Shown: one piece after another, positions 15,355-28,462 of the stretch
How the letters are laid out: every line of letters begins with the position of its first letter
Numbering within the stretch: position 1 is the stretch's first letter
Source: Campylobacterales bacterium
GTDB taxonomy: Bacteria > Campylobacterota > Campylobacteria > Campylobacterales > Sulfurimonadaceae
Direction: 5' to 3'
NCBI GenBank assembly: GCA_026390075.1
Contig: JAPLGP010000037.1
Location: forward strand, 1 to 64,000
Length of the DNA stretch: 64,000 nucleotides
Made by a program: the position numbers and the translations under genes
The notes under the pieces: model-generated
What the model was told of the DNA's origin: nothing
What the model saw: only the letters and a program-made list of their open reading frames with translations
The model's database searches: none

Positions 15355-15450
15355 TTCTCGAAAAACAAAGTTTTTCGTAGCTTTAGGGGGTTGTAGGGAC
15401 ATATTTGTCCCTGCCACTAAAACGGACGCGTTCGTTTTAGTGTATAACAT
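15355..15450. repeat. 96-bp three-hairpin element, copy 1
   Basis: Three successive inverted repeats are visible: CGAAAAAc.aaGTTTTTCG, then GGGACAtatTTGTCCC, then a palindrome around ACGCGT (AACGgACGCGTTCGTT). The same architecture and nearly the same bases, also 96 bp, recur at 24258-24353 after sqr. Here it separates hydC from the terminator. It could be a mobile element or a structured RNA affecting mRNA processing between hydABC and hydD. Confidence 0.75.
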
Positions 15451-19989: not shown

Positions 19990-22551
19990 ATGAATGAAGT
20001 AAAAACTATTTATTTAAAAGATTATAAAGCACCAGAATTTCAGGTGTTAGGCTGTGAATTGGTGTTTGAACTGTTTGAAGATGAGACGATTGTAAGTAAT
20101 GTTATGAAGATCAAAAAAGTTGAAATGTATGCCAAAGATATCGTTTTAGATAGTCTTGATTTGGAACTTTTAGAGTTGTGGCTCAATGACCTCAAGCTCA
20201 AAGAACCGCGTTATAAAATCGAAAAAGAGAATTTGATAATTTTTAATGTTCCCGATGAATTTACGCTCAAAATCAAAAATAAAATATTTCCACATGCCAA
20301 CACAGAGTTGGAAGGTCTCTATAAATCTGGAACGATTTTTTGTACACAAAACGAGCCAGAAGGGTTTAGAAAAATCACTCCTTATTTAGACCGTCCTGAT
20401 GTGATGTCCGTTTTTACAACGACTGTGATTGCGGACAAAAAGAAGTATCCGATTTTGCTCAGTAATGGAAACAAAAGAGCGACAAAAGATTTGGAAGATG
20501 GAAGACACAGCGTGACTTGGGAAGACCCGCACAAAAAACCATCCTACCTTTTTGCCCTTGTAGCTGGGGATTTGGGGTGTGTCAATGATAGCTTTACGAC
20601 CATGAATGCTCGGCATGTGGAACTCAATATCTACTGCGATTTGGGCAATGAATCCAAATGTGCACATGCCATGAAATCGCTCAAAGAGTCTATGACTTGG
20701 GATGAAGAAAAATATGGGCGCGAGTATGATTTAGAGATTTATAATATCGTTGCGGTGGATAGTTTTAATATGGGTGCGATGGAAAATAAGGGTTTAAATA
20801 TCTTCAACTCTGCGTATGTTTTGGCAAATGAAGATACGGCTACAGATGCTAACTTTATGGGGATTCAAAGCGTTATCGCCCATGAGTATTTTCACAACTG
20901 GACAGGAAACCGCATCACTTGCCGTGATTGGTTTCAGTTGACACTCAAAGAGGGGCTGACAGTCTTTCGAGACCAATGTTTCTCAGCTGATTTGAACTCA
21001 AAAGAGGTGCAAAGAATCGAGAGTGTTATCGCCCTTCGAGATAGACAGTTTGTCGAAGATGCTTCGCCGACCGCACACCCGATTCAGCCCGATTCTTACA
21101 TGGCTATCAACAATTTTTACACCGCTACTGTGTATGAAAAAGGTGCGGAGGTGATTCGTATGATTCACACTCTTTTAGGTGAAGAAAACTACCGCAAAGC
21201 GACGGATTTGTACTTTAAAACTTTTGATGGACAGGCTGTGCGAACGGATGATTTTTTATGGGCGATGAGCAGTGCTTCTGATGTGGATTTGCGTGCGTTT
21301 GAGATTTGGTATCATCAATCGGGAACACCAAAACTACATGTGCAAGAGAAGTATGAAGATGGCGCTTACACATTAACCTTAACTCAGAAAGTTCCACATG
21401 CTGTAGATGGTTCTGCACAAAAGCCTTATTTCTTTCCTCTCAAAATGGCACTTTTGGATGAAAATGGCAAAGAAATAGTAGAAAAAATCTTAATCATTTC
21501 TAAAAAAGTAGAAGAGTTTGTTTACGAGAACATGAGTCAAAAACCAGTTTTATCGATAAACCGTGATTTTTCAGCACCGATTATTATAGAACAAGAAGAA
21601 AATGACTACGCATTTTTGATGAAGCATGATAAAAACAGTTTTGTGCGATACGAATCAGCGCAATCTTTTGCAGTCGCTACGCTTGAGGCGATGATGTGTG
21701 GTAAAGAAATAGATGAAGAGTTTGTTGCTTCTTATGGGTATGTTTTAGGGCTGGATATTGATTTGTTCTACAAAGCTTTACTTTTAGAACTTCCATCTGT
21801 TTCTACGCTCATGCAAAGACAAGAAGAGGTGGATTTTGAGCCTATTTATCAGGCAAAAGAGAAGTTGGCAAAACATTTAGCAACAACTTATAAAGATAAA
21901 TTGGTTGCGCTTTATAATGAATTCCACATGCCAAGTAATGCAGATATTGATGCCCTGAGTATTGGAAAAAGAGCTTTAAAAAATCGTGTTCTTAAACTGC
22001 TCTCTTCATTGGAAAATGAGGAAGTGATTTTGATGGCAAAAGCGCAGTATGAAGAGTCCTTAACGATGACGGACAGAGTTACGGCACTTGATATTTTAGA
22101 AAATACTTCAGCTCCACATGCCGCAGTTGCACAAGCAGATTTTTATGAAAAATACAAAAATAACACTTTAGTTATGAACAAATACTTCTCGATTTTGGCA
22201 TCTTCGCTTAGAGATGCAACGCTTAAGCGGGTTATGACTTTGCAAGAAGATGGCGTGTATGATGAGAAAGTGCCAAATTTAGTTCGTTCACTTATTGGGG
22301 TATTTTCGAAAAATTATAAACACTTTCATGCTAAAAATGGAAAAGGTTACGCATTTATCGCAGATAAAATTATAGAAATAGATACAATCAATCCACAAAT
22401 GGCATCAGGTCTGTGTTCCGCCTTCAAAATATATGAACGACTCAACAAGACAAATAAAAATTTAATGCAAAAAGAGTTAGAGCGTATCATTTCTACACAC
22501 TCACTCTCAAAAAATTCTTATGAAATTATGAGTAAAATTTTAAAAATTTAA
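19990..22551 (+). CDS. pepN: Aminopeptidase N (M1 zinc metallopeptidase)
   Basis: 853 residues, typical of bacterial PepN. It removes N-terminal amino acids from peptides in the cytoplasm. The exopeptidase signature MGAMENKGLN lies near residue 262 and the zinc motif HEYFH near 298, with the third zinc ligand Glu in LKEGLTVFRDQ. The C-terminal half is the helical repeat domain of the family. It starts about 60 bases after hypF and has its own terminator. It is unusually rich in the window-wide 11-mer (three exact copies at 20288, 20612 and 21922 plus near copies), read as FPHA, RHVE and FHMP. Confidence 0.95.
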   Translation: MNEVKTIYLKDYKAPEFQVLGCELVFELFEDETIVSNVMKIKKVEMYAKDIVLDSLDLELLELWLNDLKLKEPRYKIEKENLIIFNVPDEFTLKIKNKIFPHANTELEGLYKSGTIFCTQNEPEGFRKITPYLDRPDVMSVFTTTVIADKKKYPILLSNGNKRATKDLEDGRHSVTWEDPHKKPSYLFALVAGDLGCVNDSFTTMNARHVELNIYCDLGNESKCAHAMKSLKESMTWDEEKYGREYDLEIYNIVAVDSFNMGAMENKGLNIFNSAYVLANEDTATDANFMGIQSVIAHEYFHNWTGNRITCRDWFQLTLKEGLTVFRDQCFSADLNSKEVQRIESVIALRDRQFVEDASPTAHPIQPDSYMAINNFYTATVYEKGAEVIRMIHTLLGEENYRKATDLYFKTFDGQAVRTDDFLWAMSSASDVDLRAFEIWYHQSGTPKLHVQEKYEDGAYTLTLTQKVPHAVDGSAQKPYFFPLKMALLDENGKEIVEKILIISKKVEEFVYENMSQKPVLSINRDFSAPIIIEQEENDYAFLMKHDKNSFVRYESAQSFAVATLEAMMCGKEIDEEFVASYGYVLGLDIDLFYKALLLELPSVSTLMQRQEEVDFEPIYQAKEKLAKHLATTYKDKLVALYNEFHMPSNADIDALSIGKRALKNRVLKLLSSLENEEVILMAKAQYEESLTMTDRVTALDILENTSAPHAAVAQADFYEKYKNNTLVMNKYFSILASSLRDATLKRVMTLQEDGVYDEKVPNLVRSLIGVFSKNYKHFHAKNGKGYAFIADKIIEIDTINPQMASGLCSAFKIYERLNKTNKNLMQKELERIISTHSLSKNSYEIMSKILKI

Positions 22552-22717: not shown

Positions 22718-24187
22718 ATGGCAAGATTAGTTGTTTTAGGTGGGGGTGTCTCAGGACACACAGCTGCGACTTTCGCAGCAGAATGGTTAGGCTCAGAACA
22801 TGAGGTTGTAGTTGTGACTCCAAATGCAAAATGGAACTGGATTCCATCAAACATTTGGGTTGGTGTTGGTCAAATGACTAAAGAAGAAGTTACTTTTGAT
22901 TTAGCTCCTGTGTATGCTAAAGCTGGTATTATCTATCATCAAGCAAAAGCACTTGGAATTCACCCTGAAGGGAATGAAACGAGTGATAAGCCTTATGTTG
23001 TTGTTGAGTCAACTGAAGCTGGTAGTGCAGGTAAAATTGAAAATATAGAGTATGATTACCTTATCAATGCTACTGGTCCAAAGCTTAACTTTGCTGCAAC
23101 TCCAGGTTTGGGTGATGCAAATGGTTTAGGTGAATTTACTGTTTCAGTTTGTACAGCAGACCACGCAGTTCACGCAAGTGAAGAGCTTCATAAATGTATT
23201 CAAACAATGAAAGCTGGAAAGCGTCAAAAATTCTTAATCGGTACTGGACATGGTATGTGTACTTGTCAAGGTGCTGCATTTGAGTATATTTTCAATATTG
23301 AGCATGAATTAAACAAAGCTGGTGTTCGTGATATGGCAGACATCAAGTGGATTTCAAACGAATCATTTTTAGGTGACTTCGGTGTTGGTGGACTTCACAT
23401 GAAAGCTATGGGTTTTGCTGTTAGTTCAAAAATATTTGCTGAGTCTCTTTTTGCTGAGAGAAATGTTGATTGGATTATCGGTGCGCATGTTAACAAGGTT
23501 GAAAAAGGCAAAGCACACTATGAACTTCTTGATGGAAGTATGGGTGAAGAAGAGTTTGACTTTTCAATGTTAATTCCTCCATTTGCTGGTGTTGGCTTAA
23601 AAGCTATCAACAAAGCAGGTGAAGATATTACAGCTACTGTTTTTGCTCCAAATGGTTTTATGAAAGTAGATGCTAACTATGCTGCTGGTGCGTATGAAAA
23701 CTGGAAAGCAAGTGACTGGCCTTCAACTTACCAAAATCCAACTTATGGAAATTTATTTGCATGTGGAATTGCTTTTGCACCGCCACACCCTATTTCAAAA
23801 CCAATGAGTTCACCAAATGGAACTCCGATCACTCCTACTCCTCCAAGAACTGGTATGCCATCAGGTATCATGGGTAAAGCTGTTGCTCATAGTGTTTGTG
23901 ACAGAATCTTAAAAGGTCCAGATGCTCCACTTCATGAAGCTTCAATGGCTCACATGGGTGCTGCTTGTGTTGCTTCTGCAGGTAAAGGTTTATTTACTGG
24001 AACTGCTGCTGCGATGACAATTTATCCTGTTGTTCCAGATTTTGAAAAATACCCAGGAACTGGTCGTGATACAGAATATACATTTGGTGAAATTGGTCTT
24101 GCTGGTCACTGGATTAAACATATCTTACATCACTTGTTTATTTGGAAAGCTAAACTCAAGCCAGGCTGGACATTAATCCCAGAATAG
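22718..24187 (+). CDS. sqr: Sulfide:quinone oxidoreductase
   Basis: 489 residues, an FAD flavoprotein that oxidises sulfide and passes electrons to quinone at the membrane. The N-terminal dinucleotide fold is LVVLGGGVSGHTAATFAAEW. Redox cysteine candidates are in VCTADHAV (near 145) and MCTCQGAAFE (near 185). The second FAD contact is probably the region around NLFACGIAFAPPHP. The C-terminal segment (GHWIKHILHHLFIWKAK) is amphipathic and likely seats it on the membrane. It is longer than type I/II enzymes (about 430); I cannot fix the Sqr type by eye, but a type III or VI form fits the size. It is linked by a structured repeat to a 54-residue ORF. Confidence 0.85.
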   Translation: MARLVVLGGGVSGHTAATFAAEWLGSEHEVVVVTPNAKWNWIPSNIWVGVGQMTKEEVTFDLAPVYAKAGIIYHQAKALGIHPEGNETSDKPYVVVESTEAGSAGKIENIEYDYLINATGPKLNFAATPGLGDANGLGEFTVSVCTADHAVHASEELHKCIQTMKAGKRQKFLIGTGHGMCTCQGAAFEYIFNIEHELNKAGVRDMADIKWISNESFLGDFGVGGLHMKAMGFAVSSKIFAESLFAERNVDWIIGAHVNKVEKGKAHYELLDGSMGEEEFDFSMLIPPFAGVGLKAINKAGEDITATVFAPNGFMKVDANYAAGAYENWKASDWPSTYQNPTYGNLFACGIAFAPPHPISKPMSSPNGTPITPTPPRTGMPSGIMGKAVAHSVCDRILKGPDAPLHEASMAHMGAACVASAGKGLFTGTAAAMTIYPVVPDFEKYPGTGRDTEYTFGEIGLAGHWIKHILHHLFIWKAKLKPGWTLIPE

Positions 24188-24257: not shown

Positions 24258-24353
24258 TTCTCGAAAAATAAAGTTTTTCGTAGCTTTAGGGGGATGTAAG
24301 GGACAATTTGTCCCTGCCACCTAAACGAACGCGTTCGTTTGGGTGTGTAACAT
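24258..24353. repeat. 96-bp three-hairpin element, copy 2
   Basis: The counterpart of 15355-15450: CGAAAAAt.aaGTTTTTCG, GGGACAATTTGTCCC and AACGAACGCGTTCGTT, in the same order and total length. It lies in the 184-base gap between sqr and the 54-residue ORF, so if transcription runs through it would sit between them in the mRNA. Confidence 0.75.
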
Positions 24354-24371: not shown

Positions 24372-24536
24372 ATGTCAAAATATGGCGAAAAAAACATCAA
24401 AGCGTATGGTAACAACTTTACAACTATGACACCTGGTCCAGTTGCAAAATTTTTGAGAACATGTGTTATCTTCCAATTTATAAGATTTATCTTTATTAAT
24501 ATAAAAATGCTAGTAGTGGTAAGTAAAAGCCACTAA
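24372..24536 (+). CDS. 54-residue putative membrane-associated protein after sqr
   Basis: ATG at 24372 has a good ribosome site (AAAAAGGAA, spacing about 6). The product starts MSKYGEKNIKAYG, has a central TMTPGPVAKF, and ends in a hydrophobic stretch (residues about 31-50). It is followed at once by a strong terminator, which supports a real transcription unit ending here. I do not recognise the family. Its place after sqr suggests a role tied to sulfide oxidation or membrane attachment, but this is inference. Confidence 0.6.
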   Translation: MSKYGEKNIKAYGNNFTTMTPGPVAKFLRTCVIFQFIRFIFINIKMLVVVSKSH

Positions 24537-24542
24537 AACTAC

Positions 24543-24578
24543 AAGTACCTTGGAGAATTTTTCAAGGTACTTCTTCTT
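24543..24578 (+). terminator. Terminator after the 54-residue ORF
   Basis: AAGTACCTTG and CAAGGTACTT form a perfect 10-bp stem around a 10-base loop (24543-24572), followed by CTTCTTC. Confidence 0.8.
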
Positions 24579-24615: not shown

Positions 24616-25425
24616 ATGGTACAAGAGATAATCACATACCCTATGGCACCAAGTGCTCAGTATGGAACTGATGTCAGAGTCTTTAATGAAGAGGTATTTT
24701 TATTACTTGATGATTTAAAAGATACTATAAATGAAAACAATTTAGATGCTTTAGCAGCATTTCAAGTTGGAAGCTATTACAATATTGTTGTTATTAAAGA
24801 AGAGGATGGCAGTTTTTTAGAGTTAATAAATCCTAGACTCATTAGTACGAAAGATAAAATTACTACAATAGAGACAACTTCTTATTTTCCAAATTTAAGC
24901 GCTGAAATTACAAGACATGATAGTATTAGCATTGTTTATCAAGACAGGTATGCAATGAACCATTCTTTAAAAGCAAGTGCTGAGAGAAGTGTTCTTATTC
25001 AAAGAAAATTAGATTATAACTTTGGGGCAACTTTTTTAAGTAAATTGTCTAAAAAAGAAAAAGCAAAATTTGAAAAAAAGCTAGAATTTGGCTCTGATAT
25101 TACAATTTCTGAGAGTTGCCCAACAACTTTCAAAAGAGATTATCTTGTAAAAATATCAAAAGTCTTACTTATTTTAATGCTCGTACTTCTTGTTGTTTCT
25201 TTATTTGTAAGTGACAAAGCAATACTCTCTGGCATGTGGAATACTCAGATAGGTTTATCTATTGCAGCTTTATTAACTAATATCACATACTTCTTTTATG
25301 CGCATTATGAAGCTAAACAATATACTTCATGTGTAAGTTGTCAAAGTGGAAATATAATCGGCACTACGCTTGTTGCATTCGTTAAAATATCAGTCATTAT
25401 GATTGCTTCATACTTTCTTCTCTAA
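24616..25425 (+). CDS. Inactive peptide-deformylase-like domain fused to a membrane domain
   Basis: 269 residues. Residues 1-160 align along their length with peptide deformylase: ITYP at the start, NNLDALAAFQVG for motif 1 (GxGLAAxQxG), ELINPRLIS, then ETTSY in place of motif 2 EGCLS, and QRKLDY (129-134) in place of motif 3 QHExDH, followed by FLSKLSKKEKAKFEKKLE as in true enzymes. The metal ligands (Cys and both His) and the catalytic Glu are all gone, so it cannot be a deformylase. Three transmembrane helices follow (about 180-198, 211-229, 250-268), with a CVSC pair between the last two. It sits 5 bases before a hybrid histidine kinase, suggesting a ligand-binding or signalling role. Confidence 0.72.
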   Translation: MVQEIITYPMAPSAQYGTDVRVFNEEVFLLLDDLKDTINENNLDALAAFQVGSYYNIVVIKEEDGSFLELINPRLISTKDKITTIETTSYFPNLSAEITRHDSISIVYQDRYAMNHSLKASAERSVLIQRKLDYNFGATFLSKLSKKEKAKFEKKLEFGSDITISESCPTTFKRDYLVKISKVLLILMLVLLVVSLFVSDKAILSGMWNTQIGLSIAALLTNITYFFYAHYEAKQYTSCVSCQSGNIIGTTLVAFVKISVIMIASYFLL

Positions 25426-25430
25426 AATCT

Positions 25431-27716
25431 ATGAAAGGTACTATTACTTATCTTGTAGAAGTACAAACCGTTTTTATATTGGCAAAAGATACAATTCTTT
25501 GGGATTGGATTGCCTATGAGTCTCCTAAAAAAATCTTATTACAGCATGATATTGAACCAGAAATATTTATAACACATTACGCTGGTGGTGTTTTTGATTA
25601 TTTTATGGGTGTTATCGCTGGTAAAGTTGAAATAGGAAATTGTCCTGTTATGCAAAGTCTTTTGTCGTATCTAAAAAATAAAAATATTAGTGCGGATGAG
25701 TTGTTTGAGATATGTAGCTACTTTCGTCGTGCAATGATTGATTTTTCCTATGACGCTGGTTTAAACTCTAAAAATATTTTTAATGAGCTTTCTTATATTT
25801 TTGATAAAAATTTTAGAGGAATTTTAAAATATTATACAGACACTATTTTTCAAAGACTTATAGATGCAAGACTTGATGCGCAAAATGCTTCACAAGCCAA
25901 AGAGTACTTTTTGTCTAATATGTCACATGAGATAAGAACACCTCTCAATGCAATTTTAGGGTTTGTAAATCTTTTAATAGATGATGATATATCCAAAAAG
26001 CATAGAAAATATTTAGATATTATTCAAAACAGCGGTGAAAACCTTTTAAGCATAATGAATGACATTTTAGATTTCTCAAAACTTCGTAGCGGTGAGTTTA
26101 TGATTGAGCCTAAAATATTTTCACTTCATGAAGAGATAAGCCATACGATGGAGCTTTTCATTGCAAGTGCAACAAGTAAAGATATTACTATAACTTCATT
26201 TATCGACCCCAATATACCAAAAGAAATGTATGCAGATTCTTTGCGATTGAAGCAAATTTTGTCTAATTTTTTAAGTAATGCCATAAAGTTTACACATAAT
26301 GGAGGCGTTATTTTTGTTGATGTAAGTTGCAAAAATAAACTATTAATAATAAGCGTAAAAGATGATGGGATAGGAATAGAGCAAAAAGATATTCAAAATA
26401 TATTTACTGCATTTACTCAAATTCAACATGGTGAACTCAGCAACTCTCAGGGAACAGGTCTTGGCTTATCAATATGTAATCAGTTGGCACTTCACATGAA
26501 TGGTACAATAAATGTAGAATCAACAAAGGGTGTTGGAAGTACATTTTGGATAGAAATTCCTGTTGAAATTCACTCAAATGAGTGCCATATATTTGAAGAT
26601 TTGAAGCAGTTCTTAAATCTTAAAATAGCACTTTATTCAAAAAGTAAAGAAATTATTTTTCAATATGATTCATTGTTGAAATATGCGAATGCTTTTGGTA
26701 TGAATATGAAAATAGTCGATACTCTTGATGGTGATTATGACATATTTGTTTTTGTGCATGAAGAGATAGATTTTAAGATGAAAAAAAGTATTATAAGTTC
26801 ACACAAAAAATATATTGCACTAATGAGTAAACATTATGATGAATATGATATTTATAAAGATATTATATCTCTATGTTTTCCACTCTATTGTTCAAAAATA
26901 TATTCTGCTTTTGATGAGTTGTTGTATCAGAATACAGATATTGCAGTTCTTAAAAAATCATCGCAACAGTTTGAAGGGCATGTACTTCTCGCCGAAGATA
27001 ATGAAGCCAACCAAGAACTTATGAAAATTATACTTACAAAGTATGGACTCAGTTTTGATATTGCGCATAATGGGCTTGATGCACTGGATTTATATAAGCA
27101 TAATAAGTATGATTTAGTTTTAATGGATGAACAGATGCCACTGATGAACGGCATAGAAGCATTAAAAGAGATATTAAAATATGAACAGGAGACACGACTT
27201 AGACATACCCCTATTTCGGCACTTACAGCCAATGTAATTAAGGGTGCAAGAGAGAGAGGGCTTTTAAGTGGTTTTGATTCATTTTTGGGGAAACCGATTA
27301 TTTTAAAAGAGCTAGAGAGAGTTTTTTTAGCCTACTTAAAAGTTGGTAAAAATACTAAACAAGAGCTAAAACAAGAAAATTATTCAAACACAATAATAAA
27401 AGGCTTAGATATAAAAAAGCTTCAAGAAGAGCTTTTACTTAGTGAAGAAGAGCTTTTGCTCTTAGTGAATATGTTTATAAAAAAGATGAAAAAATCTTTA
27501 CCAGATTTACAAAATGCGATACAACTAAAAGATTATAAAAAGATAGCTTTAATCGCGCACAGCATTCAAGGTTCAAGTGCAAACTTTAGACTTGATGCTT
27601 TACAAAATAGTGCAAATCAAATGCAAATAATGGCTAAAGATAAAAATTGTGAGTACAAATATGAAGTTATGTTTGAAAATATAAAACAAAAAATTCAAGA
27701 GATACAAATATTCTAA
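25431..27716 (+). CDS. Hybrid histidine kinase with HisKA, HATPase, receiver and Hpt domains
   Basis: 761 residues with no clear transmembrane helix. Residues 1-140 form an all-helical sensory region I do not recognise. Then a short coiled coil, HisKA with phospho-His near 167 (NMSHEIRTPLNAIL), HATPase (N box NFLSNAIKFTH, DDGIGI, GTGLGLSI), a degenerate stretch, a receiver domain with phospho-Asp in LVLMDEQMP (near 566), and a C-terminal Hpt domain with His in IAHSIQGSSANF (near 709). This is a complete phosphorelay in one chain. It follows the deformylase-like membrane protein by 5 bases, which may be its input partner, and faces a response regulator gene convergently with 4 bases of overlap. 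Confidence 0.9.
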   Translation: MKGTITYLVEVQTVFILAKDTILWDWIAYESPKKILLQHDIEPEIFITHYAGGVFDYFMGVIAGKVEIGNCPVMQSLLSYLKNKNISADELFEICSYFRRAMIDFSYDAGLNSKNIFNELSYIFDKNFRGILKYYTDTIFQRLIDARLDAQNASQAKEYFLSNMSHEIRTPLNAILGFVNLLIDDDISKKHRKYLDIIQNSGENLLSIMNDILDFSKLRSGEFMIEPKIFSLHEEISHTMELFIASATSKDITITSFIDPNIPKEMYADSLRLKQILSNFLSNAIKFTHNGGVIFVDVSCKNKLLIISVKDDGIGIEQKDIQNIFTAFTQIQHGELSNSQGTGLGLSICNQLALHMNGTINVESTKGVGSTFWIEIPVEIHSNECHIFEDLKQFLNLKIALYSKSKEIIFQYDSLLKYANAFGMNMKIVDTLDGDYDIFVFVHEEIDFKMKKSIISSHKKYIALMSKHYDEYDIYKDIISLCFPLYCSKIYSAFDELLYQNTDIAVLKKSSQQFEGHVLLAEDNEANQELMKIILTKYGLSFDIAHNGLDALDLYKHNKYDLVLMDEQMPLMNGIEALKEILKYEQETRLRHTPISALTANVIKGARERGLLSGFDSFLGKPIILKELERVFLAYLKVGKNTKQELKQENYSNTIIKGLDIKKLQEELLLSEEELLLLVNMFIKKMKKSLPDLQNAIQLKDYKKIALIAHSIQGSSANFRLDALQNSANQMQIMAKDKNCEYKYEVMFENIKQKIQEIQIF

Positions 27717-28462
27717 TCTTCTATACAGTATCCTATACCAGAGGCATTTTTTATAATGTCGCCTTCAAGTTTATTTCTAAGTCTCCAAACAAGAGTTCTT
27801 ACACTATTTTCAGTAGCACCATGCTCTTCCCATACATAGTTCATGGCTTGTTCAAAAGTGACCACAGCTCCTAGTTGTGCAACAAGAAGTCTTAAAAAAG
27901 CATTCTCTTTTTTTGTGAGTTTAATCTTCTTACCCTTGTAAAATGTTTCACAAATGCTAATATCTAAATGATAATCTTCACCAAAAGGTACGATTGGTTC
28001 ATCAGATGCTCTTTTTGAATAGAGAAGTTTTTCTAAATTGAGTTTATCTATTTTAAGAGAGTTTATGTCATTTTTTCTCTCTTTTTCTATTTCGTATTTA
28101 AAAAGAGCCATTTGTATAGTTGCATGAAGTGAGCTTGGGTCAAAAGGTTTTACAATATAGCCATAAGGTTCAGTTTCTTTTGCTTGAGATAATATCTCAT
28201 CATCGCTGTAAGAAGTTAAAAAGATGAAAGGTATGCCGTATTTAGCTCGTATTTCTTTGGCTAAGTTGATGCCATCATTGCTCTCTTGGAGTGAGATATC
28301 AACGATTATTATATCTGGTGCGTAAGTTATAATTTTATTTTTTGCTTCAGTCGTATTATCACAGACTGCGACTATGTTGTATCCATGTTTTTTGAGTGAT
28401 AGAGACAGGTTGAGTGCCGTAATTTCATCATCTTCAACGATAAGAATATTCATATTTTTCAT
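27713..28462 (-). CDS. OmpR-like response regulator
   Basis: 249 residues. The receiver domain (1-120) has acidic residues in IVEDDE and the phospho-Asp in DIIIVDIS, with Lys in YIVKPFDP. The C-terminal winged helix (about 165-248) has LTKKENAFLRLLV and the recognition helix region NSVRTLVWRLRNKL. The 40-residue linker is longer than usual. The gene is convergent with the hybrid kinase and overlaps its last codon, so the two are probably partners, the kinase Hpt passing phosphate to this receiver. ATG 28462 is kept because CAGGA lies 10 bases upstream; a second Met three codons later is possible. Confidence 0.88.
   Translation of the reverse strand: MKNMNILIVEDDEITALNLSLSLKKHGYNIVAVCDNTTEAKNKIITYAPDIIIVDISLQESNDGINLAKEIRAKYGIPFIFLTSYSDDEILSQAKETEPYGYIVKPFDPSSLHATIQMALFKYEIEKERKNDINSLKIDKLNLEKLLYSKRASDEPIVPFGEDYHLDISICETFYKGKKIKLTKKENAFLRLLVAQLGAVVTFEQAMNYVWEEHGATENSVRTLVWRLRNKLEGDIIKNASGIGYCIED

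Follow-up and report, generated by a model that had tools for sequence, protein, structure and literature searches.

What is the function of a peptide deformylase that has lost its catalytic residues and carries a membrane domain, and with which of its neighbors does it act? The question is raised by a gene, termed PDFL, in the window, i.e., the whole stretch of 64,000 nucleotides of Campylobacterales DNA that was analyzed. The source genome comprises 2.4 Mb, and the named genomes closest to it belong mostly to Sulfurimonas and Sulfuricurvum. The original prediction held that a reused, dead deformylase fold could bind formyl-peptides or another ligand and feed the hybrid kinase encoded directly downstream. 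The features of the locus, in window coordinates, are as follows.

19990..22551, + strand: aminopeptidase N-like gene, 853 aa (named from its sequence, without an HMM search)
22718..24187, + strand: flavoprotein of the sulfide:quinone reductase (SQR) type, 489 aa, containing all three cysteines typical of SQR; conserved partner upstream of PDFL
24372..24536, + strand: small ORF for a microprotein of 54 aa with a hydrophobic/basic helix; conserved, directly 3' of SQR
24543..24572, + strand: hairpin between the small ORF and PDFL; most relatives have a hairpin of variable sequence there
24616..25425, + strand: PDFL, pseudo-deformylase membrane protein, 269 aa (ORF, PF01327, AlphaFold2)
25431..27716, + strand: hybrid histidine kinase, 761 aa, with a globin-like sensor domain (residues 1 to ~140), HisKA, HATPase_c, REC, and Hpt
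27713..28462, - strand: OmpR-type response regulator (REC and Trans_reg_C), convergent with the kinase

The 5-nt gap between PDFL and the kinase, and the convergent orientation of the regulator, which overlaps the kinase gene by 4 nt, are as originally described. The SQR gene had been missed as a partner, as had the 54-aa ORF, which fell below the size limit of the ORF list. A literature search, which covered few subscription journals, returned no relevant paper on PDFL or the SQR locus.

Deformylase and membrane domains of PDFL

Residues 3–149 of PDFL match PF01327 with 85.6–87.2 bits (E ~1e-24, cut-off 22.8), and the protein lies below the NCBIfam equivalog cut-offs for deformylase. The AlphaFold2 model, built with 74 natural sequences, displays a deformylase fold (pLDDT 86.7) whose best solved match is the Helicobacter pylori deformylase 2ew5 (Foldseek E 2e-13; in VIA, Z 23.2 with an rmsd of 1.8 across 159 residues and 32% identity). 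The HMM and structure searches that had been proposed as a check thus agree with the predicted N-terminal scaffold. Alignment with the intact deformylase (L001) that the source genome keeps elsewhere confirmed the loss of the motif-2 Cys (EGCLSVP to ETTSYFP) and of HExxH in motif 3 (QHEMDH to QRKLDY); the motif-1 Gln50 is retained. Among 61 PDFL members, the motif-2 ligand Cys is replaced by Thr, Ser, or Asp, and the replacement residues R130, K131, and Y134 are found in 54, 53, and 46 members, respectively. Q129, D133, and G137 are invariant in these members, which come from several families. The family has replaced each of the three metal ligands as well as the catalytic Glu, and since the replacement residues are conserved, this loss does not reflect decay. 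On sequence grounds, the gene encodes a true, catalytically dead homologue of peptide deformylase, in which the near-invariant R130 and K131 would place two positive side chains where the metal-binding His and the catalytic Glu had been.

That PDFL is an ordinary peptide deformylase would fit the PF01327 score and the database annotation, RefSeq naming the Sulfurovum mangrovi homologue 'peptide deformylase', but is highly improbable given the family-wide replacements, the separate intact enzyme in the same genome, and the scores below the equivalog cut-offs. PDFL shares with Def (PF01327; 2ew5) the fold, the domain length, the motif-1 Gln, and the general scaffold, while it differs in the missing metal ligands and catalytic Glu, in its membrane domain with three conserved cysteines, and in its link to SQR. 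To our knowledge, it would be the first pseudoenzyme family recognized in the deformylase fold, and one that is hidden in public records under the name of the enzyme. The fold search also found two Escherichia coli deformylase complexes that hold hydrosulfide (PDB 4al2 and 4az4), so the ancestral deformylase fold could bind sulfide.

The deformylase fold spans residues 1–160. In accordance with the three predicted transmembrane segments, hydropathy and the AlphaFold2 model place helices at residues ~175–195, 201–234, and 237–268, with the CVSC pair (C239-V-S-C242) between helices 2 and 3. C239 and C242 are invariant in the 61 members, and C168 followed by Pro is found in 60 of them. Helix 1 and the loop connecting helices 2 and 3 are bordered by positive charge. 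Together with hydropathy and the helix positions, this charge suggests a cytoplasmic location for C168, for the turn with C239xxC242, and for the soluble domain, and by helix topology the three cysteines would be clustered at the cytoplasmic membrane face.

The same architecture is encoded in 121 of 400 Campylobacterales genomes, so its occurrence in the window is not due to chance. The profile for this genome scan came from a closer member set, an alignment of 50 diverse members being too varied. In a phylum-wide sample, 18 of 121 genomes contained PDFL, every one of them from Campylobacterales; the families include Sulfurimonadaceae, Sulfurovaceae, and Arcobacteraceae. A search of plasmids returned just one homologue, carried by a Sulfurovum mangrovi replicon of 395 kb. 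On this plasmid (NZ_CP087125.1; L224:6001-6816) the PDFL frame is interrupted, annotated as two 'peptide deformylase' pieces, and adjoins genes for an FAD oxidoreductase and the microprotein.

The source genome encodes a second PDFL paralogue with 45% identity, and a clade of 15 second-copy sequences is unlinked from the SQR locus. In two loci of this clade (L051 and L053), the gene adjoins a DsrE-family gene. The genes flanking the second copies there (L051:5186-8588 and L053) are DsrE-like, carboxymuconolactone decarboxylase-like, and nitrilase-like, and one encodes a MerR regulator. The DsrE-like family comprises sulfur carriers, and its presence beside members of the paralogue clade would suit a new metal-free enzyme that uses the remodeled pocket or the cysteine trio, e.g., for sulfur transfer after SQR; so would the conservation of R130, K131, Y134, and Cys 168/239/242 across families. 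We nevertheless regard such an activity as quite unlikely, as the cysteines are located in or beside membrane helices and we know of no deformylase-fold enzyme that works without a metal.

SQR and the microprotein as constant partners

SQR is the nearest real upstream neighbor of PDFL in 47 of the 59 loci with ordered genes, which represent several families, and is nearly always on the same strand. The remaining neighbors are entirely different from family to family and include housekeeping genes, among them rpsI/rplM, ppk, and the gene for carbonic anhydrase. SQR is present in 119 of the 121 PDFL genomes compared with 195 of the 400 Campylobacterales genomes overall, a figure that is inflated by relatedness and with which gain and loss events agree. 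Conversely, 76 SQR-positive genomes are devoid of PDFL, indicating that PDFL is not essential for SQR. The upstream gene product matches Pyr_redox_2, a dinucleotide-binding oxidoreductase domain (36.6 bits, cut-off 26.1), and is homologous to the Aquifex aeolicus SQR (3hyv/3hyw), with whose three cysteines C143, C183, and C417 align. Unlike the A. aeolicus enzyme, it is longer (489 aa) and is accompanied by the microprotein and often by PDFL. We know of no accessory of either kind for SQR.

A small ORF, mostly of 52–60 aa, occupies 120 of the 121 gaps between SQR and PDFL. It starts at a median of 26 nt after SQR, is preceded by a Shine-Dalgarno-like motif in 111 of the 120 cases, against a background of 9%, and shows most of its divergence at third codon positions. 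The C-terminal motif of the microprotein is RTCxxxQxIRFxxINxKMxxVVxKSH, with the form RTCVxxQxIRFxxINxKMLVVVxKSH in the window. One RefSeq record lists it as a hypothetical protein; an assignment to DUF4492 was unsupported by a Pfam test. Of 40 additional loci that were inspected and have no adjacent PDFL, 37 likewise have the microprotein 3' of SQR, and two of the three exceptions are at contig ends. As it follows SQR even without PDFL, SQR and the microprotein constitute the base unit, to which PDFL is an addition.

These many genomes with SQR and microprotein but without PDFL also bear on the idea that PDFL assists the assembly or membrane targeting of SQR (or of the microprotein), with the dead pocket binding a formylated nascent N-terminus. 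The deformylase fold natively recognizes N-termini, and this function would be consistent with the loss of the catalytic residues and the linkage of PDFL to SQR and a membrane microprotein. Nonetheless, the change from HE to RK in the pocket would alter formyl-Met recognition, and together with the PDFL-free genomes this makes the idea unlikely.

Hairpins with a stem of at least 7 are present between the microprotein and PDFL in 70 of 103 loci, where 5 are expected; their position is conserved, their sequence is not. The hairpin may separate transcription units, and PDFL may consequently be expressed at a lower level than SQR or independently of it.

The aminopeptidase N-like gene is found upstream only in Sulfurimonadaceae loci and is probably a positional neighbor outside the SQR/PDFL module. 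SQR, the small ORF, and PDFL are present without kinase or aminopeptidase on three Arcobacteraceae-binned contigs (L098, L099, and L122), whose PDFL sequences nest among Sulfurimonas ones; a MAG binning error is possible. A contig titled Helicobacter pylori PMSS1 MAG (L128), which also has the order SQR-small ORF-PDFL, is nested with an Arcobacteraceae-binned locus; its title is probably wrong.

The hybrid kinase of Sulfurimonadaceae

The HisKA, HATPase_c, REC, and Hpt domains of the kinase all score above their Pfam cut-offs. Counted by a match to its N-terminal domain at E 1e-39 or better, the SQR-locus kinase occurs in 44 of the 400 genomes, nearly all of them Sulfurimonadaceae, and 41 of these contain PDFL. 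The neighbor survey suggested with the original prediction did not bear out a fixed PDFL-kinase pair: 80 of the 121 PDFL genomes are without the kinase, and the constant partner of PDFL is SQR with the microprotein. Moreover, three genomes have the kinase but not PDFL. Two of them (G170 and G089) show the order SQR-microprotein-kinase, and the third (G282) has lost the block of SQR, small ORF, and PDFL as a whole, its aminopeptidase gene lying directly next to the kinase gene. PDFL homologues are thus scattered without the kinase, which had been named as the outcome that speaks against the proposal. The basal lineages of the PDFL tree have SQR and no kinase. The kinase is a later, Sulfurimonadaceae-specific addition to the SQR locus.

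A ligand receptor, for formyl-peptides or another compound, that feeds the hybrid kinase would explain why the two genes form a same-strand pair with a gap of 5–20 nt in most Sulfurimonadaceae loci, and why PDFL retains a peptide-binding fold with Gln50. This reading is unlikely in view of the distribution described above, including the basal lineages; furthermore, the catalytic pocket is remodeled instead of retained, and the kinase has a globin-like sensor domain of its own. A formyl-peptide receptor is conceivable only as a clade-specific extra use, which is itself unlikely. What holds of the original proposal is a reused, dead deformylase on a membrane anchor that is paired with the kinase across Sulfurimonadaceae; the role of feeding the kinase is not supported.

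The kinase N-terminus had been described as helical and unrecognized. In a Pfam search its first ~145 residues gave chance matches only, and they are modeled as a helical domain of the globin superfamily. The model matches the RsbR N-terminal domain 2bnl with Z 11.8, which is middling for a helical fold and tied with other globins (rmsd 2.7, 126 residues), and the globin-coupled sensor HemAT 1or4 with Z 11.3. In 62 domains of this type, W26, F46, Y57, G69, C71, P72, F92, C95, and N127 are invariant, and no His in the F-helix region that could serve as proximal haem ligand is invariant. The domain may share its predicted fold with RsbR and the globin-coupled sensors but differs from them in the absence of a conserved F-helix His, in the invariant Cys71-Pro72 and Cys95, and in belonging to no Pfam family. 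The same Cys-Pro domain (window 25431-25865; L215-L221) is also found on other proteins: hybrid kinases, kinases with PAS domains, and proteins of the GGDEF/PilZ type. The kinase contributes to the locus an uncatalogued sensor domain, also present on diguanylate cyclases, and is a candidate for sensing sulfide or redox state.

Among the regulators already known for genes of sulfide oxidation, SqrR, BigR, and FisR are DNA-binding repressors or activators, and SqrR and BigR sense by cysteines. The kinase and regulator of this locus are likewise linked to such genes, but they constitute a two-component system, with a Cys-Pro domain of globin-like fold, and are confined to one clade. BigR is a sulfide sensor (PMC5823870).

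A putative role for PDFL in an SQR module

Linkage, co-loss, and co-occurrence indicate that PDFL is part of the SQR module, in which the deformylase fold serves as a scaffold. The best explanation, to which we assign a probability of about 0.5, is that PDFL is a non-catalytic, membrane-anchored deformylase-fold accessory of a module consisting of SQR, the 54-aa membrane microprotein, and PDFL. The DsrE-family gene beside the unlinked copies in L051 and L053 also favors this reading. The working parts of PDFL are likely the cysteine trio and the Arg/Lys pocket. As to its biochemical role, we infer that the deformylase fold would serve for binding: the pocket that once held the metal, lined by Arg130 and Lys131, may accommodate the terminus of a protein or an anionic group. 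At the cytoplasmic membrane face, C168, C239, and C242 could together make up a site for redox chemistry, sulfane sulfur, or a metal, and this site might tune SQR activity, assembly, or product handling. In Sulfurimonadaceae, the Cys-Pro globin-like kinase and the OmpR-type regulator would have been added downstream and probably control the locus by sulfide or redox state, in parallel to PDFL and not necessarily through it.

Several observations weigh against an SQR accessory. One clade of PDFL paralogues is no longer found at the SQR locus, the co-occurrence is partly phylogenetic, 76 genomes have SQR without PDFL, and the hairpin may split the transcription units. In addition, a periplasmic orientation has been proposed for SQR in some other bacteria, and such an orientation would put the catalytic face opposite the soluble domain of PDFL. 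A more specific version, in which PDFL is a dedicated membrane subunit or a sulfur/redox relay in a new three-component complex with SQR and the microprotein, is put forward tentatively, as the less probable case. In those Campylobacterota that are dominant at many vents and in sulfidic waters, sulfide enters respiration through SQR; if the accessory role is true, SQR in these bacteria would work with undescribed partners, a microprotein and a pseudo-deformylase.

Finally, a near-perfect palindrome (CACCTAAACGAACG/CGTTCGTTTGGGTG) is present at window positions 24318-24345, in the gap between SQR and the small ORF, which is unusually long here. Its core occurs in one further copy, with one mismatch, at window positions 15420-15437.
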